Below, piece by piece: positions 9,744 through 55,741 of a stretch of DNA of 64,000 bases. Source of the DNA: Candidatus Fermentibacterota bacterium (GTDB lineage Bacteria > JAFGKV01); contig JAFGKV010000238.1 of the NCBI GenBank assembly GCA_016928395.1, positions 1-64,000 of the forward strand, written 5' to 3'. Below the pieces are notes generated by a model. The model did no database searches. It was not told the origin of the DNA and saw only the letters and a program-made list of their open reading frames with translations. The translations under genes and the position numbers were made by a program. Within the stretch, counting starts at the first letter, position 1; every line of letters begins with the position of its first letter.

Positions 9744-9744
<1 letters not shown>

Positions 9745-27259: not shown

Positions 27260-30200
27260 CTACCGAAGAAGGACGATCAGATTACTTGCACTCTGCCCGC
27301 AGGCAACGAGCTGACAGTGATATGTGCCATTGGGAAGTGTCGTTCCATTTTGGTCAACGCCGTGCCAGCGAACTCCGTGTTCTCCCGCATCAAGCACTCC
27401 CAAGTCCATCCGTGACAGCACGCGGCCGGTCAAATCGCGCACAAGCAACGTTGATCGCGAGGATCGAGGCACCGAGAAGGTAATGGCAACCTCTCCGGCT
27501 GCGGGGTTGGGCACAGGAGGGTGAAGCAGCAGTCGCGAGGGGTTCTCGGCGGGTGCTGCATGAACCCCAGTGCCGAACATGCCGGTATCCCGGTGATCCA
27601 CCGGTATCAGGAATCCCGTGGTATCCCACGCCGCCGCAGCGGCGAAAGAGAGTGTAGTGGCGTAGGCGGTGTCGGCGTCTTGTTCGAGCGAGAACAGGAT
27701 ATTGCAGATTGCCCCTGTTCCCACGACCAGCGATGTTGCATTCCGTCGCAGCGTCACGACCACCGAGCAGGCTGCCGCTACTGTCTCATCCACATGATAG
27801 CTGAGGACAAAGTCCTCGGCCCTACCTGCCAGCTCCACTCCTCCCTCCACAGGCACATGGGCGCCGTGCTCGGCGGAGTAGACCAGCGTGAAGCACAGGG
27901 AGTCAAGGCTGACGGGGTTGTATGTCTCGTTGTCCAACTCGATATCCACGGGATTGCCGGTCGAGCCCGGAGCGCCGGACCCGACGCCCACACAGAGGCG
28001 TACCGGGAGCTGGGCAACGAAGGTCTGGCCAGCAAGGTCACTCATCAGATTGGCGATGGTGATCTCTTGGGGAAAGAAGCCCCAGGACACGCTGTCATCG
28101 TATGCCAGAGATGGCGTGATCTGATAGGCGAGGCCTCCCGGAACTGCTTCAAAGGAATAGGTCCCGACTGAGCTGGTGAAGGTGGAATCGGACCAGCCGC
28201 CGCTGAGGTGGACCGCAACGCCGGGCAGAGCCTCGCCATCTCTGCCGGCTATCGACCCCGTGATGGCATAGCGGGGGCGCACCCCAGTGAAGTCCCGATT
28301 GGTCTGTGGGGCGGTAAGGGGGTCAAACTGGTACGAGGGAGGCGTGAATGTCCACGCCCCTTCGGGAGGATCGTAGGAGGGTGTGACAGTGTAGGTTCTG
28401 CCGCCGGCAAGCGAAGAGAAGGAATACGACCCGTTGGCCGACGTGGTCGTCGTGTCCACGGCTTCCCCGGCGAGTACCACGCGAACACCCTCCATCGACG
28501 CATTCGTTTCGTCTCGCACCGTGCCCGAGATCGTGTAGAAGGGCGGCGTGCCGACAAAGTCTTCGGCCCAGTGGTTGCTGTTCAGCAACTGAACGGTTCT
28601 GTTCTGTGGCTCGAAGGACCACGTGCCTTCTTGAGGAGTGTACGTCGGGGTGATCGTGTAGGTTTCGGCGCCCAGAAGGTTGCTGAACTGGAAGGAGCCT
28701 TGGGCATTGGTGGTCGTTTGCGCCTGCTGGAAACCGGACAGATTGACCGTGACCCCTTCCATCGGCACGCTCGCATAGCTCGTGATGGTACCACCGATGG
28801 TGTAGCGGGGGATACTGCCCGTGAAGTCCTGTCCCCATTGATCGGCTTGAAGGTTGCTGTAGGTGCGATTCTGGGGGGAGAACGGCCAGGCACCAGCGAT
28901 GTCCGAATAGGTGGGGGTGACGGTGTAGTTCCCTCCCGCGGCCAGATCAGAGAACGCATAGGTTCCGTCTCCTCCAGTCGTCACCTGGCCTGTCGACGAC
29001 CCGGTGAGAGACACCACGGCGCCTGATAGAGGCGCGCCAGACTCGGTACGCACTGTTCCGCCGATGGTATAGGCTGCCGCGATGGTCATCTGCCCCTGAT
29101 AGGGGAAGAATCCCGGGTGCGTTACGGTCACCTCGATGGCGTCTTGCGTCGAGGGGGTGATCTGGAAGTAGGCGGTGCCGGAACCGTCGGCGTACCCGGC
29201 CTCATAGACCCCCGCGCCCCGCAGGCAGACCAGTGAACCCGAGACTCCCGTGGACACCGCCACGTTGGAGGTTCCCGTAGGAACCGTGGAGGGATGGCTC
29301 ACATTCATTGTAGAGGGTTCTCTCGTCCACAGGGCCAGCTCCGGGTCTCCCAGGAGATTGTACTGACGCACCGTAACGGTCACCGTATCACTGGGCGGAT
29401 AGTTGTAGGTCAGGTAGTACAGGCCCGCGTCGGTGATGGGGCCTATCCTGGTCAAGCCTTGATATGCCAGACCATCATAGATCCCCAAATCCAGGGTGTT
29501 GTTTGCATAGGTATGGGTGATGTGCGTGGCGCCGAAGAAGGCGATGGCACCACCCGCGGCGCGCATGAAGCTCTCGCCCAAACATTCGCCATACGCACCA
29601 CCGGTATGGGTGAAATCCCCGGTGAGGCAAATGATACTGGTAACCAGGGGTCGCCTGGGGCCGTTCTGCATGAAGTAGCAGTAATCCTGGGTCCAGCCGA
29701 TTTCGGCCAAGCGCTCCCTATCGGCGACTCCCCCGCGGTAGTTCAGGATGTTGCGTCCGTCATTGAGCTTCTGGAGAAGCTGCACGGCGGTGCCGCTGGG
29801 GGCAAACACCGAATCCACCTCATCGTACCCGAAGTTGAGAAGCCAATCCCGTACTATGCGTTTCGTGCCAGGGTGCGTCGGGTGCTCGGCGCCTGACGAT
29901 ACCGTGCCGCGTTCCATCCACGGGCCGTCACCTTCCCCCGATTCGTACGAGAGGATCTTGTCGATCATGACCGCCAAGTCAGCGGTCCCCGCGGCAGGAA
30001 GCCTTCCCACGAAAACGTCAGGAAGCTCATCGTTCCCAACGAATGTGCCATAGTAGCGGTCAGATTTGAGGTACCCACCAACAATGGGATTGTAGTAGTC
30101 ATGGGTCGGCAACGCGGGATGATCGCCCACCAGGAGCACATATTCCAAGGTTCCCGAAGTATTGTAGATGTCCCGGATGTACTGCCGTATGGCAGAATCC

Positions 30201-30775
30201 GTGGAGCCGGTCTGACTCAAGGTCGCCATCTGCGGCGCCAAGCCCTTGCGTTCCTTCCAGTCGAACAGGGCGCCGATGGAACCGGCCAGTTCGTCGGTGC
30301 AGACGAAGAGATAGCGGATGCCTGGACTGCGGCTCTCCAGCTGGATCTGATCCCAGTTAAGCACATAGGGGCGGATCAGCTCGGCGAATGACTGCGGCAG
30401 GTATCCCCGGAACGGTGGCATACCCTGATGAACGCCATCCAGCCGGAGGTCAATGCGAAGATCGATGACACCGTCAGGAACGTCTGTCGGTACATTGGCA
30501 ATCAACGGCACCACCCGAAGCTCGCGGATCATGGCGGGTTCACCGGTCTCGACAATGGTCGTGCCCATGCCCGTGCGCATGGAGGTCGCGACGCTGTGGA
30601 TCTCGATTCCTCCGGGCGCGGCGACGAAACCCAGAGGGATTCGCTGGCCAGGGTGTGCGGTGAGAGATGCCTCCAGCGTCACTGAGTGTGTGGCTGTTGC
30701 CACCACGTTTATGGTATGGGCCTCCGACGCGGCGCCCATTCCCAGAACCCCCACAAGTACGAGAAGAAGAAGCAT
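27260..30775 (-). CDS. Gingipain-like C25 protein with four carboxypeptidase-regulatory repeats and FlgD-like C-terminal domain
   Basis: 1171 residues with a signal peptide (MLLLLVLVGVLGMGAASEA). A C25-like caspase-hemoglobinase domain covers about residues 165-480 (EYVLLVGDHPALPTHDY; the nucleophile context IICLTGDF, Cys about 382). Where active relatives have GHG with the catalytic His, this protein reads NYRGGVAD (about 343-350), so it may be inactive. Then come an Ig-like domain, four ~89-residue carboxypeptidase-regulatory repeats (568-923), a cohesin-like domain, and an FlgD-type beta-sandwich tail (LLVRDLTGRVL, LPNGTYHCQL) common on secreted proteins of FCB-related phyla. AGGAG lies eight bases before the ATG. 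It is the last gene of its run. Confidence 0.82.
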   Translation of the reverse strand: MLLLLVLVGVLGMGAASEAHTINVVATATHSVTLEASLTAHPGQRIPLGFVAAPGGIEIHSVATSMRTGMGTTIVETGEPAMIRELRVVPLIANVPTDVPDGVIDLRIDLRLDGVHQGMPPFRGYLPQSFAELIRPYVLNWDQIQLESRSPGIRYLFVCTDELAGSIGALFDWKERKGLAPQMATLSQTGSTDSAIRQYIRDIYNTSGTLEYVLLVGDHPALPTHDYYNPIVGGYLKSDRYYGTFVGNDELPDVFVGRLPAAGTADLAVMIDKILSYESGEGDGPWMERGTVSSGAEHPTHPGTKRIVRDWLLNFGYDEVDSVFAPSGTAVQLLQKLNDGRNILNYRGGVADRERLAEIGWTQDYCYFMQNGPRRPLVTSIICLTGDFTHTGGAYGECLGESFMRAAGGAIAFFGATHITHTYANNTLDLGIYDGLAYQGLTRIGPITDAGLYYLTYNYPPSDTVTVTVRQYNLLGDPELALWTREPSTMNVSHPSTVPTGTSNVAVSTGVSGSLVCLRGAGVYEAGYADGSGTAYFQITPSTQDAIEVTVTHPGFFPYQGQMTIAAAYTIGGTVRTESGAPLSGAVVSLTGSSTGQVTTGGDGTYAFSDLAAGGNYTVTPTYSDIAGAWPFSPQNRTYSNLQADQWGQDFTGSIPRYTIGGTITSYASVPMEGVTVNLSGFQQAQTTTNAQGSFQFSNLLGAETYTITPTYTPQEGTWSFEPQNRTVQLLNSNHWAEDFVGTPPFYTISGTVRDETNASMEGVRVVLAGEAVDTTTTSANGSYSFSSLAGGRTYTVTPSYDPPEGAWTFTPPSYQFDPLTAPQTNRDFTGVRPRYAITGSIAGRDGEALPGVAVHLSGGWSDSTFTSSVGTYSFEAVPGGLAYQITPSLAYDDSVSWGFFPQEITIANLMSDLAGQTFVAQLPVRLCVGVGSGAPGSTGNPVDIELDNETYNPVSLDSLCFTLVYSAEHGAHVPVEGGVELAGRAEDFVLSYHVDETVAAACSVVVTLRRNATSLVVGTGAICNILFSLEQDADTAYATTLSFAAAAAWDTTGFLIPVDHRDTGMFGTGVHAAPAENPSRLLLHPPVPNPAAGEVAITFSVPRSSRSTLLVRDLTGRVLSRMDLGVLDAGEHGVRWHGVDQNGTTLPNGTYHCQLVACGQSASNLIVLLR
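28004..29072 (-). repeat. Four tandem ~267-bp repeats encoding carboxypeptidase-regulatory-like domains
   Basis: Inside the C25 gene the protein repeats a unit of about 89 residues four times, each opening YTIGGT, YTIGGT, YTISGT or YAITGS and containing a V-L-G segment, a TTT-x2-GSYSF-like strand, Y-x-(V/I)TP, and a closing QNRT or equivalent before D-F-x-G. The copies have diverged, most in the fourth. Such repeats form stiff stalks on secreted proteins. Confidence 0.85.
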
Positions 30776-32635: not shown

Positions 32636-33646
32636 CTACCACGAGAGGATGACCAGACCGTTTCTTGTAGTTCCCACGTAGATGTAGTCATCGTCGGCGG
32701 CCATGGAGTACGAGGCGTTCACGACATACTGGCCGATTACGTGGGGCCGGTCGGGCCGGGACACATCCAGGACCAGGACGCCTTCATAGCTATCGGCGAC
32801 CAGCAGCCTGTCGCGGTGAAGGATGACTTGCTTCGCGTTCCCCGGGGTACGGTGCCACCCGATCTGGCGGAGGTCCGCGGGATCGGTAGCGTCGATGACC
32901 CAGATGCCTCGGGCATTGTCGGCGACAAATGCCACAACCTGGTTGCCCAAGGAGCCCACGGCGACGTCATTGGCATAATCTTCAGTATCGAGGGAGTCGA
33001 GAGGTTCCATGACGCCGGAGAAATTGTCGGGCCTGTGACGGGCCGTGACCAGGCCGGCCTCACCCTGAGCGACATAGATCACTCCGTCGCGCACGGCAAC
33101 GCCGCGGGCGTAACCCGGGAGACGTAGCCGGTTGGCGAAATGCAGGTCGGGAGGCGTGTGGTCGATCTCCTTGATGTCGAAACTGACGAGGCCGCCGGAA
33201 CGATCGGCGACGTACAGCATGGTATCTACTGCGGCAACGTCTTCATACGACTCAACATAGGATGGCTGCACTTCAGTCCAGTAGAAGGGCGCAGTGGGGT
33301 CGGTTACATCCGCGACGAACATGCCAAGGTAGGATCCGGCCGTCACGCAGGCGAACTTTCTCATCCCCCGGTCAACCACTACCAGAGACTTCGAGTAGCC
33401 ATTTGGGGGATCCAATCGGCCGCCCTGAGCGGGCGCCTCAGGATCGCGTACGTCGATGGTGGTGAGACCCAGTTCTCCAGTGGCGAGATAGGCCCACCCG
33501 TCGTCCACCACCACATCGTACACCTGACCCTCTGTCGGAATCGACGCCACCACCTTGAACGCATCTTTCGGCTCGATGGGGCCTTCCCGCTCAGCGCAGG
33601 AGACCAGCAAAGCCGCCCCCAGCAGCACCAGGGTATTCCTTGTCAT
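32636..33646 (-). CDS. LVIVD-repeat beta-propeller lipoprotein
   Basis: 336 residues. The N-terminus ends in the lipobox LLVSC (Cys17), predicting a lipoprotein. The rest repeats short strands of the LVIVD type: VYDVVVDDGWAYLATGELGL, DVAAVDTMLYVADRSGGLVS, GVAVRDGVIYVAQGEAGLV and GIWVIDATDP. LVIVD proteins form propellers at the outer membrane or surface; their ligands are unknown. GGGAGG lies six bases before the ATG. It starts 3 bases after the barrel gene ends, which suggests the lipoprotein may cap or plug that barrel; that is inference. Confidence 0.82.
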   Translation of the reverse strand: MTRNTLVLLGAALLVSCAEREGPIEPKDAFKVVASIPTEGQVYDVVVDDGWAYLATGELGLTTIDVRDPEAPAQGGRLDPPNGYSKSLVVVDRGMRKFACVTAGSYLGMFVADVTDPTAPFYWTEVQPSYVESYEDVAAVDTMLYVADRSGGLVSFDIKEIDHTPPDLHFANRLRLPGYARGVAVRDGVIYVAQGEAGLVTARHRPDNFSGVMEPLDSLDTEDYANDVAVGSLGNQVVAFVADNARGIWVIDATDPADLRQIGWHRTPGNAKQVILHRDRLLVADSYEGVLVLDVSRPDRPHVIGQYVVNASYSMAADDDYIYVGTTRNGLVILSW

Positions 33647-33649
33647 TGT

Positions 33650-34753
33650 CTACCTCCCAGTCTTTCCGACGAGGCCTCGCGTTACCGACATCGAAAGGCC
33701 GATGGTATTGGCGGTGAAATCCTTCTCTTCCCCGAGGTCGTCCTTGGCGTACGAATCAACTTCGCGCTTCTGCCACTTGTAGTTCAGATTGGCGGACACC
33801 CCCGCACCCAGGCTGAACCCGATGCCGGTTTCCAGGGCAACCTTATTGTCTTTTCGGCCAGCATGGTAGGGGTCATCGATGAAGTCCTTCTTGGTAGTGC
33901 ACGCCTTCAGATTGTAGCTTAGGCCGAAACTCAGTGATGGAGACGAGGCGAGCACCTTGACCGGCAATATATACGAACCGAACACATCATAGTTGTTCTC
34001 GTGGTACGAACCATCCGTCTCATCCGAGGTCTCCTTCGTCTCACCGGGTTCGTCATAGCCTTTCATGGTGACTCTTCGGTAGTTGGCGCTGACACCTAGC
34101 GTGAGGCGTCTTGTGACACCGTACTTTGCCTCAGCCGTGACGGCGAAACCGTGGAAGTCATACTCCTGGAAGTAGTCAGGGTATTTCTCCCGCTCATACT
34201 GCCCGCGCGCCCGAAGCCCCAACCTTCCGCCCTTAAGGAGCCCCTTGGTGGCCTGCAGAGAGAGGAAATGCTTCGCGTAGTCATACTCCTCATAGTCCAT
34301 CGTGTCCTCATCGTAAATCTGACGGATGTAGTACCGAGGAGTGTATCGATACGTGAGATAGGTGTAGAAATAACTGCCGATCCTTCTGCGAAGATCGAGC
34401 GAATAGTTGTGAAAGCTCTTCATCGTGTTGCGGTAGTTGCTGTTCTGCTTGACGGTGAGGGTAACCCTGGTGTCACCCTTGTACGCCTGAAGCCCCAGAG
34501 ACTGCGCGATGATCAGATCGTCGGTAGTCTCCACCGTGGAGTACTGATCAGTCTGCGGCAGGTTTTTTATCAGGTCGATCTCATCCTCTGAGTACCGGAA
34601 GACGTTGTCGTCATAAGTAAACGACAGCCCCGTGACCAGGTCCAACTGGATGGAGGGAGGCGTCTTCTTCTTCGGCTTCGGCTTGGGGGTGGCCGCGGTT
34701 GCGGGCATGACAAACCCTACCATCACCGCGATCAGCATCAGCTTCTTAGTCAA
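33650..34753 (-). CDS. Outer-membrane beta-barrel protein of the pgs-linked run
   Basis: About 367 residues from a TTG with AAGGAGG seven bases upstream; that start gives a clean signal peptide (KKLMLIAVMVGFVMPATA). A Pro/Lys-rich linker (TPKPKPKKKTPP) follows. The remainder is a series of amphipathic strands (SFTYDDNVFRYS, YRNTMKSFHNYSLDLRRRIG, YTYLTYRYTPRYY, FAVTAEAKYGVTRRLTLGVS, AGVSANLNYKWQKRE) typical of a 14-18-strand barrel, ending SMSVTRGLVGKTGR. The family resembles outer_beta-barrel porin types, without a close match I can name. It lies in a run with pgsB-pgsC-pgsW, so it could be the outer-membrane exit for that polymer. Confidence 0.65.
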   Translation of the reverse strand: MTKKLMLIAVMVGFVMPATAATPKPKPKKKTPPSIQLDLVTGLSFTYDDNVFRYSEDEIDLIKNLPQTDQYSTVETTDDLIIAQSLGLQAYKGDTRVTLTVKQNSNYRNTMKSFHNYSLDLRRRIGSYFYTYLTYRYTPRYYIRQIYDEDTMDYEEYDYAKHFLSLQATKGLLKGGRLGLRARGQYEREKYPDYFQEYDFHGFAVTAEAKYGVTRRLTLGVSANYRRVTMKGYDEPGETKETSDETDGSYHENNYDVFGSYILPVKVLASSPSLSFGLSYNLKACTTKKDFIDDPYHAGRKDNKVALETGIGFSLGAGVSANLNYKWQKREVDSYAKDDLGEEKDFTANTIGLSMSVTRGLVGKTGR

Positions 34754-34822
34754 ACCGTATCCTCCTTCAAGTGGGGCCGCGCTTCGCAGTGAAGGATGTG
34801 GCAGAAGCACGGCGGTCGTGGA

Positions 34823-35689
34823 TCAGATATCCTTCTGAGGAATCAAGAACCGGAGCAAAACGCTGTCCAGGGCACTGCCTGGCTTGAAGCTCCAGTGGTG
34901 GACACCCGGCGGGACCGGAATGACTGCACGTTTGCCTGGCGCCGGTACCAGGTCATCCCGGTCAAGATATCTGGTCACATCGGAGCGTCGTGAGCTCCAC
35001 GTGAACGAGTGGATCACCTGACTGCTCTCTAGTATTTGTACCTGGTAGTTCTGAATTCCTTTCATGTCGTAAGTGAACTCAAGGCGAGAGTAGATCACCA
35101 GCGTGGTCGGGCCGATGATCTCCAACTCCACCGGAGTCTGAGCTGTCGCGCGGTAGTATTTGACCTCGCGTTCCGCCCGTTCCAGGCGCACCACATCGGC
35201 ATACCGTTCCGGGGACATGGCCGAGAGCTTGCCGAGGGAGGAGGGCTTGGCCGAGAAGAGCACCTTGACAGAGACGTTCTTGTCAGGGCACGTGATGGCG
35301 ATCTGCCTCGTCCTCGGCGGGATGACTGCATACGAAGTGCGGCTCTCACCGACCCATAGCTTCCGGCCCGGTACGCCCGCTATCCCCGACTTCCTTGTAG
35401 AGTACGTCTTGGCGACCTTCCTGGTTCCTCCCACTATGGTTAACGAATAGGAAGTGTCCCGTTGCGTGGGGCGGGGGCCGATCCACCGAGAGACCACCCT
35501 AAGGCCACCTGGTCCCGTCACGTTCAACCGCAACCCGTTCGCCCGATAGTACGTGGTCGACCTCCCTTTGATCACCACCGGTTGCTCCACGGTAGTTCCA
35601 TATATGGGAGTCAGGGTCTTCCACTGACTCGACTCCGCTCCCGTAGCAGCAACCACCCACGCAACGACCAGAAGGCATCGACACATCAT
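34823..35689 (-). CDS. Secreted protein with an internal tandem duplication
   Basis: 288 residues with a signal peptide (CLLVVAWVVAATGAES). Two halves align by eye: TTYYRANGLRLNVTGPGGLR ... VPGRK ... IPPRTRQIAIT and VKYYRATAQTPVELEIIGPT ... VPAPGKR ... VPPGVHHWSF. Both share YYRA, L/V-x3-GP-x2-L-x3-SR, a Tyr-rich strand, R-x-S and a VPxPG turn. They probably form two beta-sandwich domains in the periplasm. No known family recognised. It is 11 bases downstream of pgsW with GGAGG six bases before the ATG, so it is likely a partner of the Pgs proteins. Confidence 0.6.
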   Translation of the reverse strand: MMCRCLLVVAWVVAATGAESSQWKTLTPIYGTTVEQPVVIKGRSTTYYRANGLRLNVTGPGGLRVVSRWIGPRPTQRDTSYSLTIVGGTRKVAKTYSTRKSGIAGVPGRKLWVGESRTSYAVIPPRTRQIAITCPDKNVSVKVLFSAKPSSLGKLSAMSPERYADVVRLERAEREVKYYRATAQTPVELEIIGPTTLVIYSRLEFTYDMKGIQNYQVQILESSQVIHSFTWSSRRSDVTRYLDRDDLVPAPGKRAVIPVPPGVHHWSFKPGSALDSVLLRFLIPQKDI

Positions 35690-35700
35690 GGCAGGCCTCC

Positions 35701-36813
35701 CTAAGGGGATGGTGCTCTTGAAGTCTTGCGCAGCAGGCTGTGCGCGAGATCCACCCGGATTGTGATCAATAGCACCAGACTCAGAAGGAACAAGAGGAAA
35801 GCGGCGATCCCGGTGTTGAGCCGCTCCGTGAAGTAGATTGTCCCGACGCCGATCTCAGGATCAGGACCTGGGGGAACAGGCAAGCCGTACTGCCGTGCCA
35901 GGCGCTCCACCTGGAGTATGTGAATCACGGGGATTCCTCGCTGGGCCAGGAGAAGGGTGGCGCCTTTGGTAGGGAAGTTGCGGCGGGCCAATGTCATGGA
36001 GAGCCCCGAGCGAATGAGCCGGCCATTGATGCTTGCCCCCAATGAGGCAACACCCCCGCCGACATTGACCGCGGCCTGGATCGGGCGATCGCCGGTTGCC
36101 CGGGAATAGAGTTCCATCCGTCGGCGAATGGAGGCTTCCAGGGTTCTCTCATTTATGAACTCAACGCCGTTTCGAGTGATTGCCTGTTCGATGAGCAGGC
36201 GGCCTCGCCGGCTGAGGCCTCTCCCCCGATCTTCGCCGCCTCCGACCGACGCGGCGATGGACTTGGTGCGGATGATTCCCTTCCTTACCAGCAACTCCTC
36301 CATGTCAAGCCAGGTAAACTCGGGGTCGTTGGCGCCCCATGTGGATGACCCTACACTGGCGATGACGATGGGGCGGAGTTCCATGGTCTCCGCAGCAACA
36401 AGCAGAGCGATGTTGAGGCACGGGAGGGAGCCAGTCAAGGACACAGCGATCGCATCGCCGGGCTTGAGCCCCGCGTGACCAAGCATATCCACGAACACCG
36501 CGGCGAAGTTGGGATTGGTCGAGGTGAGCTTGGCCCGCAGTACGCCGCGATCGGTGGTAACGAGCGTGTATTCCTGACCGATCAGGCCCGTGGCGTGAGG
36601 GTCGTTCACCAAGTCGATGACCAGCCCTTTGGGCAGGCGGTAGTCGCGGATGGCCTGCTGAGCCAGCATGGCGGTTCGCGAGGCCCTAAGCTTTTCGGTG
36701 TAGAACGGGCTGTGATGAATCACCTTCGACCGCTGCACCACCACCATGCACAGCACGGCGGCCGCAGAGACCGCGACCAGCACCACGCCGGAAACAGTGC
36801 GATAGCCACCCAT
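35701..36813 (-). CDS. pgsW: Poly-gamma-glutamate system protein PgsW
   Basis: About 370 residues. There is one N-terminal membrane helix (about 7-27, VVLVAVSAAAVLCMVVV) and one near the C-terminus (about 325-350, GIAAFLLFLLSLVLLITI), with a large domain between them outside the membrane. Features such as ASVGSSTWGANDPEFTWLDM and VNVGGGVASLG match the PgsW family defined by its link to capB/pgsB and capC/pgsC. Its exact job is unknown; it replaces capA/pgsA, which is absent here. ATG 36813 overlaps the pgsC stop (TAATG) and has GGAGG eight bases upstream. Confidence 0.85.
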   Translation of the reverse strand: MGGYRTVSGVVLVAVSAAAVLCMVVVQRSKVIHHSPFYTEKLRASRTAMLAQQAIRDYRLPKGLVIDLVNDPHATGLIGQEYTLVTTDRGVLRAKLTSTNPNFAAVFVDMLGHAGLKPGDAIAVSLTGSLPCLNIALLVAAETMELRPIVIASVGSSTWGANDPEFTWLDMEELLVRKGIIRTKSIAASVGGGEDRGRGLSRRGRLLIEQAITRNGVEFINERTLEASIRRRMELYSRATGDRPIQAAVNVGGGVASLGASINGRLIRSGLSMTLARRNFPTKGATLLLAQRGIPVIHILQVERLARQYGLPVPPGPDPEIGVGTIYFTERLNTGIAAFLLFLLSLVLLITIRVDLAHSLLRKTSRAPSP

Positions 36814-37277
36814 TACATCGCCTCCGGCATACCGAAGAACGCACCACCGGACACCAGAATTAGAACAAGCCGCACCAGCACCGATGCGATGAGCAGCGTG
36901 GTCAGGGTGTGGAGTATTCCCTGCTTGTCCATATGCATACTGACCAAGCCTGGAATGATGTAGCCGACCGGCGCCAAATCCAACGGCAGATTGGCTATCT
37001 GGGGCCCCGGAAACGATCGAAGCGCCCATCCCGTGAGGAAACCGATGATGATGGTCAGCACCATACGTCGCCGGCCAAAAATGAACATGAAATAGGATAG
37101 GAACTTGATCACGCCCAGCGTTACAAAGCTGGCGACGGCCGTCGACACGAGGGCAAGCGGCCGGTCCAGATAGAGGGCTACATACCCCGGCACGACCAAG
37201 CCGCCTGCGACAAGGCCGAAGAGCTCGGAGAAGACAAGGCTAACTACAAGACCGAGACCCAGAGACTCCAGTACCAA
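36813..37277 (-). CDS. pgsC: Poly-gamma-glutamate synthase membrane subunit PgsC/CapC
   Basis: About 154 residues with four to five membrane helices. Matches to CapC/PgsC include LVFSELFGLVAGGLVVPGYV near the start, FGRRRMVLTIIIGF in the middle and GYIIPGLVSMHMDKQGI near the end. In Bacillus, PgsB and PgsC together polymerise glutamate through gamma-amide bonds at the inner membrane. The start is a TTG at 37277, with AAGG about five bases upstream, because no ATG fits; this overlaps pgsB by 38 bases, a common arrangement in pgs operons. Confidence 0.9.
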   Translation of the reverse strand: MVLESLGLGLVVSLVFSELFGLVAGGLVVPGYVALYLDRPLALVSTAVASFVTLGVIKFLSYFMFIFGRRRMVLTIIIGFLTGWALRSFPGPQIANLPLDLAPVGYIIPGLVSMHMDKQGILHTLTTLLIASVLVRLVLILVSGGAFFGMPEAM

Positions 37278-38472
37278 GAGCCTTACCTCTGTTTTGAAAG
37301 TATGATGCCACTTCTTCGCCCAAGCCGACAATGTTGCCGACCGCCACCACCAACGCCGTCGATGGCGTGAGGGCGAGCACCTTCTCAAACACTTCCGCTG
37401 GCGACGCGTCGCCCAGGTTTGTGATCCTCTCTGCGTCAAGACCCTCGCGGATGGCCTGATCCTCGACCGCCTTGGTGAGTTGACCGATGAGCACGCAGTG
37501 GTCTGACGGCCATCGTGTGGCGATGAACTTCCCGAACTGCTGCGCGCGGGACAGCCGATCGCCGCGGTTGTTGAATAGCACGATAGTCTTGTCCGTGGAT
37601 GGCACGGAGTGCCTGGCCCGTTCGCACGCCAGCAAGGTCGACTCAGGGTCATTGGCCGCCAACGCATTCACAAAGAAGAGCCGCTTCTCGAAGAATGCAA
37701 TCTCCCAGGCCTGGAGCGCACCGATATCAGGCCGTGCTTCCCACATGCCGTGGAGCGCAGTCTCGCGATCAATCCCCAGCGATTGGCAGACGGCCAAAGC
37801 CAGCGCGATGTTCTCAGGGTGTTCGAGATACGAGAAGCCCTTGGCTGCTTCGACGTCAGCCTCGGCGGGCTGCGTGACCGTCAAGGTTGTTTCCCTGGCG
37901 GCAGCAGTCTGCTGGAACGGATGGATCATCTTATGCTCGGCTGTGAATGCTTTTGCCCGCTTCGGCATGGTGTTGGAGAGAGCCCACGCGACATCTTCAA
38001 CCGTGGGACCCATGACGTCAAGATGATCCTCCCGTGCATTGGTGATCACCCCATGGGTCGCCTTGACTACCAGGTGTTCCGTGAAGCGCTGATACTCGGG
38101 CTGCACCGCCATGCATTCCAGCACCAATGCCTGGACATCCCGGGTTGCCGCACGAATGATGACCTTAATCTGCTCCCGTACAGACGGTGGCCCGTGACGA
38201 ACCACGGGAGTCTCCCGACCATTCTCCCAGATGAGGCGCGCCGCCGATCCAGTCGTCTTTGCGATAGTACGGATGCCACCCGCCCGGAGTCCGGCTGCAA
38301 TAAGGCGGGTTACACTGGACTTTCCCCGGGTGCCATTTACATGGATCCGGATGGGGATTCTCGCCAGGGCCTGCCGATGGCGACGGTGTTCGATGATCCC
38401 GGCTATCACGAGGAAAGCCAGCAGGGCCGGGAGTATTAGAAGTGAGGGCCCCGTCAGGGTGTCAATGACCAC
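37240..38472 (-). CDS. pgsB: Poly-gamma-glutamate synthase ligase PgsB/CapB
   Basis: About 410 residues. One N-terminal membrane helix (LLILPALLAFLVIAGII) precedes a Mur-ligase-like domain: P-loop NGTRGKSS (45-52), KTTGSAARLIWENG, LECMAVQPEYQ, NAREDHLDVMGPT and FVNALAANDPEST all match Bacillus PgsB. It activates a carboxylate with ATP and forms an amide bond, using glutamate in characterised systems. GTG 38472 has GGAG eight bases upstream; a GTG at 38481 abuts its Shine-Dalgarno and is less likely. It overlaps the DJ-1 gene by 19 bases and pgsC by 38. Confidence 0.92.
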   Translation of the reverse strand: MVIDTLTGPSLLILPALLAFLVIAGIIEHRRHRQALARIPIRIHVNGTRGKSSVTRLIAAGLRAGGIRTIAKTTGSAARLIWENGRETPVVRHGPPSVREQIKVIIRAATRDVQALVLECMAVQPEYQRFTEHLVVKATHGVITNAREDHLDVMGPTVEDVAWALSNTMPKRAKAFTAEHKMIHPFQQTAAARETTLTVTQPAEADVEAAKGFSYLEHPENIALALAVCQSLGIDRETALHGMWEARPDIGALQAWEIAFFEKRLFFVNALAANDPESTLLACERARHSVPSTDKTIVLFNNRGDRLSRAQQFGKFIATRWPSDHCVLIGQLTKAVEDQAIREGLDAERITNLGDASPAEVFEKVLALTPSTALVVAVGNIVGLGEEVASYFQNRGKALGTGVSGSRSCS

Positions 38473-39065
38473 CGGGTCCACTCCTCTCGAACCACATCCG
38501 GCACATCGACAACCATGGCCTCGGCCAGGGCGATTGCCCTTTCCCGGCCTGTGAGGCAAGAGACCATGGTGAGACCACAGAGCAGGGCCGTGCCGGGCCC
38601 TCTGCTGGTAACGAAAGGCGCATCCACCACAACCGGGGATTCGCAATAGTGAGAGTCCACCAACTCCGCCCTGCACGAGGGATGTGATGTGACCCGTCGG
38701 CCGCGGAGTAGCCCCATGCGGTGAAGCACGGTGGGTGCGGCGCAGATTGCAGCGATGAGCATGCCTCGACGTCGCACTTCATCGATGGCCACCATCACCG
38801 CCTCGGATTCCGCGAGACGGTTCGTGCCTGGCATACCGCCGGGAAGGAAAATGCCCATGGCAGCTTCCATATCGACCGTTTCCAGGGATACCTCTGCCTG
38901 AAGCCTGAAGCCATGGCTTCCTGGGACCATGCTCGGGGCTCCCGGCAGCCGGGCCACTACCGGGAGGATGCCTGCCCTGGAGAGCACATCGGCGACAGCC
39001 ACCGCCTCCGTTTCTTCGTAGCCTACAGCCAGTGGAATCACCACAAAAGGGCGCGGTCGGGGCAT
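38454..39065 (-). CDS. DJ-1/PfpI family protein
   Basis: 203 residues. It carries the nucleophile-elbow AAICAAPTVL with Cys108 and the helper Glu in YEETEA (Glu17/18), and GTALLCGL further on, as in YajL/DJ-1. Members are reported as chaperones, redox sensors or glyoxalase/deglycase-type enzymes; which applies here cannot be told. It starts next to the phosphoesterase stop (TGAATG) and overlaps pgsB, so it belongs to the same transcript. An active-site role in modifying polymer precursors is conceivable but unsupported. Confidence 0.85.
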   Translation of the reverse strand: MPRPRPFVVIPLAVGYEETEAVAVADVLSRAGILPVVARLPGAPSMVPGSHGFRLQAEVSLETVDMEAAMGIFLPGGMPGTNRLAESEAVMVAIDEVRRRGMLIAAICAAPTVLHRMGLLRGRRVTSHPSCRAELVDSHYCESPVVVDAPFVTSRGPGTALLCGLTMVSCLTGRERAIALAEAMVVDVPDVVREEWTRWSLTP

Positions 39066-39522: not shown

Positions 39523-42500
39523 CTACTCCTGCACTACGTAATCCTGCTCACCTACGGTCGGCGAGGCGACTGATTCGTTGGCCGCCGCATCCACTGCGGT
39601 GACTGCATAGAAGTAGTTCAGATTCGGATCTCCGATGCCTTCCGTCACGGGAAAGGTCGTGCCGGATGTCGTCGCCAGCGGCGTGAGCCCGACGACGTCG
39701 AAGTAGGCAGTTGCGCTGCGGTAGATACGATATCCGGTTACGCCCACATTGTCGGTGGCGGGTGCCCATGAAAGGGTGCCCGCGGCATCTAGGCCGGTCC
39801 ACGCAGGGGCGGTGGGCGCCTGGAGGTCTCCGCTGCCACCCCTCAGCCATGCCAGCGACTGTGCAATGACGCCACCGATAGTATTGTCGCCCGCACCCGT
39901 CGTGCTGAACGCCTCTAAGGCCGTGGCGAAGAAGATGACGCGGTAGGTAGCATCCCCGGTTGCCGGGTACCGAATCACCGTAGACTTCCCATTGTTGGCC
40001 ATGCGAAACACCGTTGCCGCGGACGGGTCGGGGCCTACCGTGTCGGGGTAATCTGAGAGGTCGCTAGGGCAGGTGATTGTGACCTGGAGCCCATCGCTGA
40101 TGGGATCTCCCGGCACACCCTGTACGCTGGTTAAACCGCTTACATTCGTCTGGAATGATGCCACATGAAGATGCTGGGAGGTGAATGAGTCTCCCGCATA
40201 CGACGAGAGGTAGTTCTCGGCAGAGAACAGCAGCGCGCCTCCATTGTCCAGATAGGCAGCCAGGTCGGTGCGGTCTTGCCCATTGCAGGAGCTTTGGTTC
40301 TGATCACCAGCAGCCCAGAGGACGACCTGATACTGCATGAGATTGAGGAGCCCCGGCGATCCTGCCGAGTACCATAGCCATTGATCGTACGTCTCACCAA
40401 GTCCATTCAGCGCCTGCACGATGCGTCCCTCGTGGGCTTCATCGTCGGTGTCGACGAAGAGGAGAGGCTTCTGGCCCACGCACACGGTGAGCGACGCGGT
40501 CGCTACATAGTCTCCCGCTGCGGACAGATCCAACGTGAATGTTACCAGGTGCGCCAGTGGTGTTGACGGGGAGAGCTCAACCTCGAAGGGGACCGTGGGG
40601 CCAGCGGCCGACGAGGGCGCGAGGTCGGGGTACCCTGCGTTGGGGTTCATGATGGTGGTGAACCCGTCAGCCTCGGACAGAGTGGCACTGACATTCCAGG
40701 CAGTGCCATTACCATTGTTCTTGACGGACGGGATGATCTGTACGGTCTCACCGGCATCCGGCTTGCCATTGCCGTTACCGGAGACCTCGACCACGGAGAA
40801 TCCGTCGAGGTCAAGTACCGGTGCATTCACCAAGAACGAGCGATACGAATCCCATGCGTTCGCCCCGGACGTAGCATGGATCAGAACGGAAACACCCTGG
40901 CGATCAGGGCAGTTGCCTCCCACGGAGAAGACATAGTCGCCCGGCGACCAGACTTCCGCGCCTGCTGCCATGTCACCGAAGCTCTGTGTGCTCTGCGTGA
41001 ACTGGACATAGGGCGACGCGGTACTGGCGACGGCGGCTACCCCGGGCGCAGGATCGACTCCCACGTTCTTGAGCTGCACACCAAACTCGATGGTCTCACC
41101 GAGTTCTATCACACCATCACCGTTGCCAAAACTGGCGCCAGCCATGTCATCATCCACGGAATGCGCGATGGCGACCACATACGGGCCCGAGGGCGAGATG
41201 ACTTCGACGGTGCCGTGGTGTTCCAGGTAGTCGTGGGCACTTACGTAGAGGTCCATCGGTCCTGGAGTCTGAGGTGGCGTGTCGAACTCGACAATGGCGG
41301 TTCCCGAGCCGTCGGTGATGGCACTGCCGAGAAGCACGCCATCGCGGGAGAAGGCGACGCGGGCTCCCGCAACACCGGGCACCGAGACCGTGAAGGTCGC
41401 CTCCCCGATTACGTAGGCTGCCGCATGATTGACGACCATGGTGGTAGGCTGCGCGGTCCAAATATCGAGGAGCGGATCGCCTAACACGTTCAGTTCGTAG
41501 TAGCACCAGCGATTCTGCTCGAACCCAATGTAAGGAATATTGTCTTCCTTTGAATCCTGGTTGGCCTCGGCGATGTTGGTGATGCCTTCACCGAACAGCG
41601 CATCGAAGAACTGCCGGTCATAGTACTGGCTGGAACCATTGGTGCTGCTGTGGGCGCCCCACCCGTAGCGGGAGCAGGAGATGTTGGCCACCGCACCGTG
41701 GGCGAGCTCGAACGCGATACGCTCATTGATGCAGTCGGATGTGTAGCCGCCCGAGGTGGTCCGGTTGTCGAACGAGCCGCAGTAGCAGCCCTGACTGTAG
41801 GTGATGTAGAACGAGTGGTTCACGCCATTGTTCGTGAAGTTCGCGTCGGTCAGGTCGGAGTTGTAGAGCCTCATGTAGTACGTGACATCGGCGTGACCGA
41901 GATGGTTCACGAGGTGGACACCGTTGTTGAGCAGCGGCCTGAGCTGGCTCATGGCATTCCACGTACCGAGGTCACGGTCATACAAGGTCGCCACGTCGAA
42001 ATTCGGGGGGAACCCGACCGTGGTATACCCATGGGTCGAGGCGCCGAACTTGATCTCGTCCTTGTAGTCGCCGCCGTAGGTCGGGTCGCTCCACAGGAGT
42101 TCGCCGACCATGAGTGCTTCGGTGCATTCGGAAACGATGGGGTTGGTTTGATAGGCAACCGTCTTGTTGTAGAAGTTGGTGAACTCGGTGGCATTGTCCC
42201 CGCACACACGCGCCACGTAGACTTCGGCCACCAGGTCTGATTCGAGGCTGTTCTCGCCCCAGAGCCCGTCGCCATCGGTGTTCCAGTTCCCGTCAAGCCC
42301 GGCGAAGTAGAGGTCGGCGGCAATGTCGTCGTCCTCGTAGCCCCATCCCGGATCGTTGTAGAGACCTCGGTGCGGAACGTTCTCGTTATCGCCGCCCAAC
42401 ATCACATACTGGATGCCGTTGTTCGTGTAGTAATCGATGATGCAGTTGCGGATCTTATCGGGGTTGTCCACACCGGTGTAGGCCGCATAGATGGACTCCA

Positions 42501-43254
42501 CCGTCTCCACGGCGATGCGCCAGCCGCGGACGGTCTTGTAGTTGACATAGGAATTCAGGTTGGCCTGTTGGGCATTGTTCGTTACGATCAAGAGGTCGTA
42601 GGGTACGTCGCGGAGGGAACGCGCAGCCGGATAGGTCATCATCGCGGTAGGGTTGATCACCGCTCGCTCCACCCTGGCTCTGTCACGCTCCGTCCCGCGG
42701 TACATCGCGGCGAGCGCGTCGGCGGCTCTTGGGGTTGCCTCGGTGATGACCTGCACGGTCAGCCGTGGATAATACTGGAGTTCTCCCGTGGCCGGAGTAT
42801 AGCTCACGGGATGCAGGGTGAACACGCCAAGGCTGCATCCCATTTTGAATTCAGTTGAGGAGTTGGCCACCCGGTACGAGGGGAATGCGTCGCGGCTTCC
42901 GAGAAGGTCCGGTACCAGGGGCGTCGTTTCCCACGGGCCTTGATAGGAGAATGGATACTGCCGTTGAACGACCTCCACGGTATAGGCGGCGGGCAGGGAG
43001 ATGGGCTCGGCTGATTCCACGTGCACGGACACGATCTCATGACCTGGCGGAAGCAGCGCCGTAATTCCCTGCACCGGAAGCCGGGGTTCGCCCGTCTGAC
43101 CGATGCTCAGGCATCCTTGAATCTCAACGCGGTAGGCATCGCCGATCGGGGTGACCGTCGGTTCCTCGTAGTCAAACGAGAAGGTGAGCATGTCGGCATG
43201 GGAGATCGCCACCGAGGCGATGACCATGACAGCTGCGACCGTGAATCTGAACAT
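39523..43254 (-). CDS. Gingipain-like C25 peptidase, 1243 residues, with C-terminal FN3 module
   Basis: A signal peptide (VAAVMVIASVAISHA) and an N-terminal propeptide-like beta region (~20-205) precede a C25 catalytic domain (~215-620). IQYVMLGGDNENVPHRG opens it; the presumed His is in LVNHLGHADV (about 454) and the nucleophile region is YSQGCYCGSF (about 487-489). After it come Ig-like and CARDB-like domains (GDGVIELGETIEFGVQLKN, GKPDAGETVQIIPSVKNNG), a flavodoxin-like segment, and a terminal FN3 (LSWAPATDNVGVTGYRIYR) ending PTVGEQDY. Known C25 enzymes cleave after Arg or Lys; specificity here is unknown. AGGAAA lies seven bases before the ATG. It is 12 bases downstream of the next C25 gene. 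Confidence 0.85.
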   Translation of the reverse strand: MFRFTVAAVMVIASVAISHADMLTFSFDYEEPTVTPIGDAYRVEIQGCLSIGQTGEPRLPVQGITALLPPGHEIVSVHVESAEPISLPAAYTVEVVQRQYPFSYQGPWETTPLVPDLLGSRDAFPSYRVANSSTEFKMGCSLGVFTLHPVSYTPATGELQYYPRLTVQVITEATPRAADALAAMYRGTERDRARVERAVINPTAMMTYPAARSLRDVPYDLLIVTNNAQQANLNSYVNYKTVRGWRIAVETVESIYAAYTGVDNPDKIRNCIIDYYTNNGIQYVMLGGDNENVPHRGLYNDPGWGYEDDDIAADLYFAGLDGNWNTDGDGLWGENSLESDLVAEVYVARVCGDNATEFTNFYNKTVAYQTNPIVSECTEALMVGELLWSDPTYGGDYKDEIKFGASTHGYTTVGFPPNFDVATLYDRDLGTWNAMSQLRPLLNNGVHLVNHLGHADVTYYMRLYNSDLTDANFTNNGVNHSFYITYSQGCYCGSFDNRTTSGGYTSDCINERIAFELAHGAVANISCSRYGWGAHSSTNGSSQYYDRQFFDALFGEGITNIAEANQDSKEDNIPYIGFEQNRWCYYELNVLGDPLLDIWTAQPTTMVVNHAAAYVIGEATFTVSVPGVAGARVAFSRDGVLLGSAITDGSGTAIVEFDTPPQTPGPMDLYVSAHDYLEHHGTVEVISPSGPYVVAIAHSVDDDMAGASFGNGDGVIELGETIEFGVQLKNVGVDPAPGVAAVASTASPYVQFTQSTQSFGDMAAGAEVWSPGDYVFSVGGNCPDRQGVSVLIHATSGANAWDSYRSFLVNAPVLDLDGFSVVEVSGNGNGKPDAGETVQIIPSVKNNGNGTAWNVSATLSEADGFTTIMNPNAGYPDLAPSSAAGPTVPFEVELSPSTPLAHLVTFTLDLSAAGDYVATASLTVCVGQKPLLFVDTDDEAHEGRIVQALNGLGETYDQWLWYSAGSPGLLNLMQYQVVLWAAGDQNQSSCNGQDRTDLAAYLDNGGALLFSAENYLSSYAGDSFTSQHLHVASFQTNVSGLTSVQGVPGDPISDGLQVTITCPSDLSDYPDTVGPDPSAATVFRMANNGKSTVIRYPATGDATYRVIFFATALEAFSTTGAGDNTIGGVIAQSLAWLRGGSGDLQAPTAPAWTGLDAAGTLSWAPATDNVGVTGYRIYRSATAYFDVVGLTPLATTSGTTFPVTEGIGDPNLNYFYAVTAVDAAANESVASPTVGEQDYVVQE

Positions 43255-43266
43255 TGGCTTTCCTCC

Positions 43267-45609
43267 CTATTCGGGTTGTGGAAGGGTGGCAGCGGGGGAA
43301 CCGGAGGGAACGACCAGTTGATAGTCGTGTTCGCCCACCGTGGGCGAGGGCGCTGATTCGTTGATCGCAGCGTCGATGGCGGTGACACGGAATGAGTAGT
43401 TCGCCAAGGGATCACCGAGCGAGCCCGACACGTCGAATGAGGTCGACGGCGTGGTCGCCATGAGCAGAGACGGAGTGGGAGCGAAGTATGCTGCCGAGGA
43501 TCGGTAGACCCGATAGCCGGTTACACCCACATTGTCGGTGGCCGGCGACCAGGTGAGAAGGCCCGTCGTGCCCAGCGCGATGGAGGCCGGTGCGGACGGC
43601 GGTTCGGAATCGCCACCGCCGATGGTGATGGCACCCATGAAGGCTACTCCATTGTAGGCGGTGACCGTGACATTCAAGGCCCCGGCCGTGGCGGAGGGAA
43701 TGGGAAGAGTCGCGTGGCCGACTCCGTCGGTGTACGCGACTGCATGCACCTCGCCGGCTTTGTACAAGCAGACAAGGGCGTCGGGGCATGGAGAGCCGCC
43801 CCTGGTCACGGTACACGGCACCGACTGAGGCGTCCCAGCGGGGATTTCCGCGGGGAAGCTCGCCGCCAGCGGGGAGGGCGCCAATGTGTACATGAGTAGC
43901 GAAGGATCACCGAGGATGTTGTACTGCTCGAAGTAACCCTTGGTGGCGTTGTTCGTCCCATACCCCTGCTTGTAGCGGAGTTTGCCCTCGAGAATGAACC
44001 CGCCAGTCCAGTTGTAGCCATCGTCAAACAGGGCATCCCACATGCGGCGCTGCAGATAGTCATCGTTCGGCCAGAAGGAGCTTACCGACGAGCCATATGC
44101 CACGACTGCGCCCTTACCCGGCCTTCGGATCCATCGTTCCATGTAGCAATCCTGGTCGCTGGTCCAGGCAAAGTTGCCGGTGAGGCAGGCGAAGCTCAGC
44201 ACGATGGGGTACCTATCGAGGTTGTTGAGCTGGTCCACGTTCCAGCGGCTGAACGTCGGCCCTTGCCATCCCGTTTCCACGCCATGGCCTGAGTAGGTCA
44301 CCATGGCGCGCCCGGTAGCTACTGCTGTAGCGATAGGTGTTCCTGTACCGTAGAACCCCCACAGCGAGTCACAGACCACGCCGTGGGCGCGGGCCTTGGC
44401 CATGCAGTAGGCGTGGGTGCCTTCGGTGACTCCGTGATAGTTCCAGTCATCGGAAGAGATGAAGTACTCCCGGCCAGTCCACAGGGAGTCGACGGCCCAC
44501 GCTGTCTGCTCGTAGTCAACGGTCTTCTCGACCAGCCCCTGGATGTCGGCGATCGTCCTGAGTGAGAATCGGCCAAGGTAGAGATCCGGCACCCAGTCTG
44601 TTCCATCCACGCAGCTGTAGTTGAGATCGGTAGGGGGGTTCTGGTTGCCGGTGCCGTTCCATGCGGGAATCGTGTTGGAATCGCCGACCAGGAGCACGAA
44701 CTCCGGGGGCGGATCCCATGTCCCATATGCGTTCTGAATGTAGTTCTTGATGGTGGTGGCAGTGGCGCCGCCCGGGATTTCGCTCAACCTGGTCAGCGTG
44801 GTGGGGTAGCCCTTGCGGGTCTTCCATTCGGCCAGAGGAACTACGGCATCATAGAGGGAGTCCACGACGATCGCAAGGTACCCTGCCGGGAGGGCAACCG
44901 TCTCCCGCGGGGGGGGATTCAGCAGAAGGCCGGCCGCGTGCTGCGCGAAGACGCTGTGCTGCAAGCGGTCTTCAGGCTGTTCCAAGGAAGCATCGAAGGA
45001 GATCCGGACAACCGCCGACTCAATGGTTTCCAGGGTTGCATTGGTGGGATCGTAGCACACCGGGGAAAGCTCGATCATGGCCAATTGCATGCCTCGCATG
45101 CGTCCTAGCTGAGCAATCCGCGCGGTCCCCGGAGGCGCGGTCGGGGTGGCGTACGAGGCTTCGTCGAGAACCCACCCGTCATCCGGGGATGCTCCCGGAA
45201 TCTTCGGCACCGGCCGCATCACCGGGGCCAGACGTTCGGCGCCCCATGCCCGCAGGTCGTGAGATCGACGCCCAGAAAACTCCACCGCGACCGTCACCGA
45301 TCCGTCGGCGGGGATTCGAATGAACGCCCGGGCGACCGGAACCTCGGGCCCGCCCCATGTCTCGGGCTTCCCCATGTCCTCCATGACAAGGTGCGCATAT
45401 CGTATGCCTTCTCTCGCGACAACCTGAGCTTTCAATGCGGGGGAGTCCCACCGAAATTCGAGATCCGTCACGCCGGAGCGGAGAAGATGCCACCCCGGCA
45501 TTGTCGTCCCTTCTCGCACCAGGTAGACCTGAGCCGGCGCCACGGCCACGGTCGATGCAACGAAGAGCAGGCACAGGAACACCACCACTGAGAATGAACA
45601 ACGTAGCAC
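43267..45609 (-). CDS. Gingipain-like C25 peptidase, 780 residues, with C-terminal FN3 module
   Basis: A signal peptide (FLCLLFVASTVAVAPAQ) and a propeptide-like region (~30-220) lead to a C25 domain (~225-575) with both catalytic elements: VTYSGHGVETGW (His about 440) and LSFACLTGNFAW (Cys about 474). A short Ig-like domain and a terminal FN3 (LTWSPATDNVGVTGYRVYR ... SPTVGEHDY) follow; that FN3 is clearly paralogous to the one ending the neighbouring 1243-residue protein. Secretion across the outer membrane is likely, but no type IX machinery is visible here. The GTG start has GGAGG nine bases upstream. It is the first gene of the run. Confidence 0.86.
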   Translation of the reverse strand: MLRCSFSVVVFLCLLFVASTVAVAPAQVYLVREGTTMPGWHLLRSGVTDLEFRWDSPALKAQVVAREGIRYAHLVMEDMGKPETWGGPEVPVARAFIRIPADGSVTVAVEFSGRRSHDLRAWGAERLAPVMRPVPKIPGASPDDGWVLDEASYATPTAPPGTARIAQLGRMRGMQLAMIELSPVCYDPTNATLETIESAVVRISFDASLEQPEDRLQHSVFAQHAAGLLLNPPPRETVALPAGYLAIVVDSLYDAVVPLAEWKTRKGYPTTLTRLSEIPGGATATTIKNYIQNAYGTWDPPPEFVLLVGDSNTIPAWNGTGNQNPPTDLNYSCVDGTDWVPDLYLGRFSLRTIADIQGLVEKTVDYEQTAWAVDSLWTGREYFISSDDWNYHGVTEGTHAYCMAKARAHGVVCDSLWGFYGTGTPIATAVATGRAMVTYSGHGVETGWQGPTFSRWNVDQLNNLDRYPIVLSFACLTGNFAWTSDQDCYMERWIRRPGKGAVVAYGSSVSSFWPNDDYLQRRMWDALFDDGYNWTGGFILEGKLRYKQGYGTNNATKGYFEQYNILGDPSLLMYTLAPSPLAASFPAEIPAGTPQSVPCTVTRGGSPCPDALVCLYKAGEVHAVAYTDGVGHATLPIPSATAGALNVTVTAYNGVAFMGAITIGGGDSEPPSAPASIALGTTGLLTWSPATDNVGVTGYRVYRSSAAYFAPTPSLLMATTPSTSFDVSGSLGDPLANYSFRVTAIDAAINESAPSPTVGEHDYQLVVPSGSPAATLPQPE

Positions 45610-55006: not shown

Positions 55007-55741
55007 ATGAACCGCACCATCGTCATTGTACCTACCTACAACGAACGTGAGAACATCGAACCGCTTGCCACCATGGTCTTGGGGCAGGACGAAGCGCTCC
55101 ATCTTCTCGTGGTCGACGACTCCTCGCCTGATGGAACGGCGGAAGCCGTGCGCCGGCTCCAGCGTGCCAGCGATCGCCTTCACCTCATCGTGCGCCCCGG
55201 CAAGGCCGGGCTGGGCACAGCCTACGTGCAGGCCTTTCGAACCGCTCTCGCAGACGGGTTCGACCGGGTTGTCACCATGGACGGCGATCTTTCCCATGAT
55301 CCGGCACATCTTCCCGACCTACTCCGGAGACTGGAGTCCTACGACATGGTGATTGGTTCCCGTTATGTCTCCGGCGGGAAGACCTACAATTGGAGCTTTG
55401 GTCGAAGGCTTTTGAGTGCCTGCGGCAACCTCTATGCGCGCTCTGTCCTGCGTGTTCCCATCCGTGACTGCTCGGCCGGGTTCATAGGCTATCGGCGTCG
55501 TGTGCTCGAGGCCATTCCCCTGGATGGGGTCCATTCCGAGGGGTACTCCTTCCTCATGGAGATGAAGTACTGGACCCACAACCTGGGATTTACCATAGAC
55601 GAGATGCCCATACTGTTCGTCGAGCGCTCGCGCGGCCGATCAAAGATCTCCCGCGCCATTCTTTTTGAGGCCCTCTGGCTCGTCTGGCGCCTTCGCCTCA
55701 CCGTTCCGAGGGTCGCTGCCAGGATGAAGGGCGCGTCGTGA
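55007..55741 (+). CDS. Polyprenol-phosphate mannosyltransferase-like GT2 (DPM1 type)
   Basis: 244 residues. It has IVPTYNERENIEPL, VVDDSSPDGTAE, TMDGDLSHDP and GSRYVSGG, the set of dolichol-phosphate mannose synthase-like enzymes. It transfers a sugar from its nucleotide form to a polyprenyl phosphate to serve outward-facing transferases. There are no C-terminal membrane helices, so it belongs to the soluble DPM1 group. The sugar (mannose or glucose) cannot be told. Its stop overlaps the start of the next gene by 4 bases. Confidence 0.87.
   Translation: MNRTIVIVPTYNERENIEPLATMVLGQDEALHLLVVDDSSPDGTAEAVRRLQRASDRLHLIVRPGKAGLGTAYVQAFRTALADGFDRVVTMDGDLSHDPAHLPDLLRRLESYDMVIGSRYVSGGKTYNWSFGRRLLSACGNLYARSVLRVPIRDCSAGFIGYRRRVLEAIPLDGVHSEGYSFLMEMKYWTHNLGFTIDEMPILFVERSRGRSKISRAILFEALWLVWRLRLTVPRVAARMKGAS

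Follow-up and report, generated by a model that had tools for sequence, protein, structure and literature searches.

A pgsBCW locus with a secreted tandem-domain protein and an outer-membrane barrel: a probable polyamide synthesis and export system in diderm bacteria

We find that the pgsB-pgsC-pgsW locus of a Candidatus Fermentibacterota bacterium, together with the genes behind it for a secreted protein (sec) and an outer-membrane beta-barrel, probably encodes a dedicated trans-envelope apparatus for the synthesis and export of a PgsBC-made polyamide, most likely poly-gamma-glutamate (probability roughly 0.72). The locus lies in a stretch of 64,000 nucleotides (contig JAFGKV010000238.1), here called the window. 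Homology, gene order, conservation, co-occurrence, gene fusions, membrane topology and predicted folds form the shown basis of this reading, from which the identity of the polymer, the direction of transport, the formation of a complex and the roles of the individual parts are inferred. That the five proteins act together is nearly certain, and what doubt remains concerns the direction of export and the barrel's role as a pore.

The five genes belong to an uninterrupted minus-strand run of twelve, with near-zero gaps (Table 1). From 5' to 3' the run encodes two C25 peptidases, a small phosphoesterase, a DJ-1 protein, PgsB, PgsC, PgsW, sec, the barrel, an LVIVD-repeat lipoprotein, an FG-GAP protein and a third C25 peptidase. 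PgsB and PgsC overlap by ~38 nt and PgsC and PgsW by ~1 nt; sec begins 12 nt beyond the end of PgsW, with a further 69 nt between sec and the barrel. A preliminary description, made from the sequence alone, had listed these parts and their coordinates, with pgsB, pgsC and pgsW overlapping and followed within tens of bases by sec, the barrel and the lipoprotein; all of this held. Its region (33650-39065) needs a small correction, as it takes in the DJ-1/PfpI gene, which lies near only 2 of 83 pgsW loci. Both this gene and the phosphoesterase were rejected as members of the system, being confined to close relatives of the window. BamA with POTRA domains is encoded in the same window (9744-11972), hence the host is a diderm; further Omp85 proteins are found elsewhere in its genome. 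The window also holds an open reading frame of 809 residues (55738-58167) without a Pfam match.

Table 1. Features of the pgsBCW gene run, in window coordinates
Feature	Coordinates	Strand	Remarks
C25-family peptidase, possible accessory	43267..45609	-	PF01364 4.7e-61; adjacent in both relatives
C25-family (gingipain/PorU-type) peptidase, possible accessory	39523..43254	-	PF01364 at 41464-42591
DJ-1/PfpI gene	38454-39065	-	within the region of the preliminary description; outside the conserved core
PgsB-type amide ligase, Mur-ligase family	37240..38472	-	GTG start; N-terminal membrane helix
PgsC/CapC membrane subunit	36813..37277	-	TTG start inferred
PgsW	35701..36813	-	two membrane helices around a periplasmic alpha/beta domain
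sec, secreted tandem jelly-roll-like protein	34823..35689	-	half-to-half homology; structure model; 64 loci after PgsW
Outer-membrane beta-barrel	33650..34753	-	TTG start at 34753; good Shine-Dalgarno; signal peptide
LVIVD-repeat lipoprotein, probable accessory	32636..33646	-	PF08309 2.9e-17
C25-family peptidase, 3' end of gene run	27260..30775	-	PF01364 4.7e-53

PgsB passes the curated equivalog cut-off of TIGR04012 (449 bits against 222.7; E 9.7e-135), also matches Mur_ligase_M and has one hydrophobic helix, at its N-terminus. PgsC, the sole copy in the genome, passes that of TIGR04011 (118.7 bits against 96.45; E 2e-34) and scores above the cut-off of Pfam CapC PF14102 (4e-29). The PgsB and PgsC motifs noted in the preliminary description are thereby upheld. 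Its statement that PgsA/CapA is absent holds at the locus, no PGA_cap match being found among the operon proteins scanned, so that the locus is not of the Bacillus type in this respect. The genome's only PGA_cap (CapA) domain resides in a large secreted multidomain protein on another contig (C202, L193), unlinked to any PgsC.

PgsW is a full-length member of TIGR04332, 'poly-gamma-glutamate system protein' (318 bits against a cut-off of 100; E 4.5e-95; profile positions 3-305 of 307), a family whose name gives no mechanism. Its predicted structure (pLDDT 78.6, pTM 0.80) places helices at residues 9-28 and 334-364, and K95, S129, S157, D170, D195 and N250 are conserved polar residues. The C-terminal membrane helix is kept in 55 of the 56 sec-type loci that could be scored, the lone exception having few residues left to score past the motif used; none of the 4 lone copies of PgsW that were scored has it. 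Searching the PDB for similar folds turned up nothing usable for the model (TM-scores of about 0.2 at best), so we claim no enzymatic role for PgsW; sequence profiles of PgsW and of sec likewise gave nothing significant against the PDB.

The secreted protein has no Pfam or NCBIfam family. Its two halves are homologous (hhalign of their alignment profiles: probability 99.8%, E 3.5e-28), which establishes a true internal tandem duplication. The structure model is all-beta and consists of two beta-sandwich domains (mean pLDDT 83.7), whose mutual placement is unsettled because pTM is only 0.50. The best fold matches in the PDB, of modest significance, are jelly-roll binding modules, including tandem CBM22, CBM51 and the E. 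coli BcsB-BcsC cellulose-secretion structure (E 4e-4). Since global TM-scores are low, these likenesses to carbohydrate-binding modules and BcsB speak for domain type and no more.

The barrel is recognized by its strand pattern. The window's copy has 10 alternating strands against 4 in shuffled sequences (z 3.5), and its family averages about eleven against five (mean z 3.2), with a value of -0.3 for PgsW as a control. Y-x-F-type terminal signals end many of the relatives, not the window's own copy. Without a Pfam family of its own, the barrel family has weak matches to EpsL, OMP_b-brl and BBP2_2. The N-terminal third of the barrel matches the first third of the EpsL profile (TIGR03014; E 1.8e-6), at 27 bits against an equivalog cut-off of 275, so the barrel is not an EpsL; on this weak match the exopolysaccharide-biosynthesis outer-membrane protein EpsL is merely its nearest named relative.

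TIGR04332 was searched phylum by phylum and pgsW was found in 3/3 genomes searched of the host's own phylum, 39/39 searched in Calditrichota, 75/199 in Neomarinimicrobiota, 28/80 in the phylum of record Glo_17 and 14/396 in Bacteroidota. We then took 83 pgsW loci from five phyla and searched their neighbourhoods with iterated profiles. PgsB and PgsC are present at 77 of these, and at 64 of the 77 sec lies directly behind PgsW; of the remaining 13, one is interrupted by the end of its contig, and sec is genuinely missing from 12. A homologous barrel comes next after sec at 57 of the 64 loci. The order PgsB-PgsC-PgsW-sec-barrel is kept in the host's own phylum, Neomarinimicrobiota, Calditrichota, the Glo_17 phylum and Bacteroidota, with the genes typically back to back (gaps ~0 nt; medians -23 and -4 nt, values that use longest-ORF starts and so may overstate the overlaps).

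The proteins also occur together at the level of genomes. Among 199 Neomarinimicrobiota genomes, 66 have PgsW and sec, 9 PgsW alone, 123 neither and a single one, in which PgsB lies at the end of a contig, only sec (Fisher p = 1.6e-41). Because the genomes are related by descent this p value overstates independence, which leaves the near absence of exceptions unaffected. In seven genomes of other loci with sec, sec maps solely to the PgsW locus. Moreover, divergence of all five proteins is correlated (r 0.81-0.91 over 56 loci), although shared ancestry may account for part of this. The survey of pgsW neighbours that the preliminary description proposed has thus been run. Two outcomes would have told against its reading, namely absence of the barrel and secreted protein near pgsBCW in relatives, and a barrel belonging to a porin family of another function; neither occurred, sec being present at 64 of 77 loci and the barrel at 57, and the barrel's closest named relative being, on a weak match, EpsL. 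The survey shows too that sec and the barrel are specific to one PgsBCW branch, and that pgsW also occurs outside loci of this kind.

Natural fusions link the same proteins. In the Glo_17 phylum, PgsW and sec form one open frame at 5 loci, and at 13 loci the barrel gene opens with an extra domain that is homologous to those of sec (E 4.5e-13). The fused PgsW-sec frames retain a hydrophobic stretch, and several have an A-x-A-like site between the two parts, so that the product may still be cleaved into two proteins. Fusions that link PgsW through sec to the barrel make it hard to credit that the three proteins act apart, and their order agrees with a route leading from the inner membrane to the outer one. 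A single open frame of the type sec-sec-barrel (L166) was set aside; it is likely a frameshift joining two genes, the C-terminus of sec turning to unrelated sequence.

In the mechanism that we propose, PgsB, an ATP-dependent Mur-type ligase, and PgsC would assemble the chain at the inner membrane and move it to the other side, a step established in Bacillus and taken here from homology. PgsW, tethered to the inner membrane at both ends, would receive or process the chain in the periplasm, replacing PgsA/CapA. The secreted protein would hold or guide the chain through the periplasm and dock on the barrel, as inferred from its fold and from the fusions, and the barrel would form the outer-membrane exit, which is again an inference. 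Because these genes are found together in at least five phyla, they probably provide the outer-membrane route that has been missing for such a polymer. The suggestion in the preliminary description that PgsW, the periplasmic protein and the barrel form an envelope-spanning exit is thus supported, with the pore role, poly-gamma-glutamate as product and a physical complex all still inferred. A bolder reading, which we also consider likely in the absence of biochemical data, is of an undescribed polyamide secretion system in at least five diderm phyla, with PgsW, tandem domains and barrel bridging both membranes.

The locus resembles the Bacillus PgsB-PgsC-PgsA(-PgsE)/CapBCA system in having PgsB and PgsC, overlapping and in the same order, but PgsW takes the place of the missing PgsA, and a tandem-domain protein of the periplasm and a barrel of the outer membrane are encoded in addition. 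Cloacimonadota, an uncultured diderm phylum, also have poly-gamma-glutamate synthase genes: synthesis genes with a CapA-type third gene are reported alongside a DAPI-stained matrix in an enrichment (PMC13082233), and CapBC is reported from Antarctic Cloacimonadota (PMC8542988). The sections of these two papers bearing on the matter propose no outer-membrane export component. With the BcsA-BcsB-BcsC cellulose and Alg/Pga/Pel systems the locus shares an inner-membrane synthase, an anchored periplasmic protein, binding-module-like domains and an outer-membrane barrel, and a barrel encoded alongside the synthase, one mark of synthase-dependent secretion, is present at 57 loci. In contrast to those systems, its synthase is the Mur-ligase-type PgsB rather than a glycosyltransferase. 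Neither the sec nor the barrel family has a match to TPR, the periplasmic scaffold of those systems, and no sequence match was found to their PDB chains. By analogy, then, the apparatus would work like cellulose or alginate secretion while being built from unrelated parts, and falls outside those families.

In the open-access literature that we searched, no outer-membrane exit for poly-gamma-glutamate is proposed, an absence that is no proof of novelty. TIGR04332 appears there in Francisella annotation lines only, the 'CapA' proteins FTT_0807 and FTN_1199 bearing the PgsW product name (PMC5362203, PMC9643745), and its partners sec and the barrel are nowhere described. A diderm route for poly-gamma-glutamate across the outer membrane thus appears undescribed, and the locus offers a candidate for each step. 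PgsW, so far a family name without a mechanism, gains a set of partners, and sec could serve as a marker by which diderm producers of polyamides are recognized in metagenomes. Since each step has a named candidate that is conserved across phyla and linked by fusions, the question of export can be tested by single-gene deletions.

Two further gene types recur around the locus. An LVIVD-type homologue lies behind the barrel in about 28 loci (24 by direct phmmer), and C25 proteins are found near 38 of 64 sec-type loci as against 1 of 19 others, a comparison made without a background test in a genome with 23 C25 matches. We infer from this recurrence that both proteins often accompany the system as accessories, to which no role is assigned.

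PgsW is also found in settings without sec and the barrel. The 12 PgsBCW loci in diderm phyla that lack both imply that PgsBCW can do without the exit. Six of them were inspected, and most have a gamma-glutamyltranspeptidase gene just upstream. Such genes directly adjoin PgsBCW at L134, L176, L186, L189 and L191; L134 has in addition an Asp/Glu racemase and an N-formylglutamate-amidohydrolase-like (FGase-like) gene with a T9SS tail. Calditrichota also have a lone soluble PgsW without PgsBC; of three such copies inspected, two (L150:6024-11901 and L156:3174-9052) have as neighbours a DctM transporter, an AstE/AspA-type hydrolase and genes like those for gamma-glutamyltranspeptidase and DUF6305. 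Some of these neighbours were confirmed with Pfam and others identified by eye. The gamma-glutamyltranspeptidase contexts tie PgsW to gamma-glutamyl chemistry and suggest that its periplasmic domain acts on the polymer; the lone Calditrichota islands might conceivably serve polyglutamate scavenging.

Of the alternatives to export, the one that survives best is that sec and the barrel anchor, cap or organize the polymer at the outer membrane while the chain crosses elsewhere. In its favour, C25 peptidases and the LVIVD lipoprotein, which are surface-type proteins, lie near many loci, sec resembles binding modules, and 12 PgsBCW loci manage without sec and the barrel. However, the order from inner-membrane PgsW through sec to the barrel, together with the fusions, suits a conduit better, and members of the barrel family consist largely of strands and show no obvious added surface-binding domain. 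We consider this alternative unlikely.

Also improbable is a different product, PgsB adding another amino acid or surface proteins, for instance the C25 peptidases, receiving glutamyl chains. The linkage of C25 proteins to 38/64 sec-type loci and the lack of an adjacent glutamate-specific gene in the window would fit, but PgsB and PgsC both exceed equivalog cut-offs for poly-gamma-glutamate synthesis, and a sister PgsBCW locus with a gamma-glutamyltranspeptidase, an Asp/Glu racemase and an N-formylglutamate-amidohydrolase-like gene points to glutamyl chemistry.

Import, in which the barrel and sec would take up polyglutamate pieces for reuse and PgsW would be a periplasmic processing enzyme, is very unlikely. 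The soluble lone PgsW of Calditrichota, beside a gamma-glutamyltranspeptidase, DctM transporter and AstE/AspA-type hydrolase, speaks for it; lone-PgsW loci, however, have neither barrel nor sec, both of which are found only beside the synthase. That the genes are chance neighbours in one lineage is all but excluded, with no supporting evidence found and the survey refuting it by the same order in at least five phyla, the fusions and the co-occurrence.

Export by the sec-type loci remains our preferred reading, and their barrel is not universal. Of the seven sec loci without a homologous barrel, two are at contig ends and five are in Bacteroidota, where a CarboxypepD-type lipoprotein and an unrelated protein of ~285 residues stand in its place (including L010:6523-8065, L013 and L016). 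That the latter is a diverged copy of the barrel is unsupported (profile comparison probability 1.7%); it may be a different barrel.
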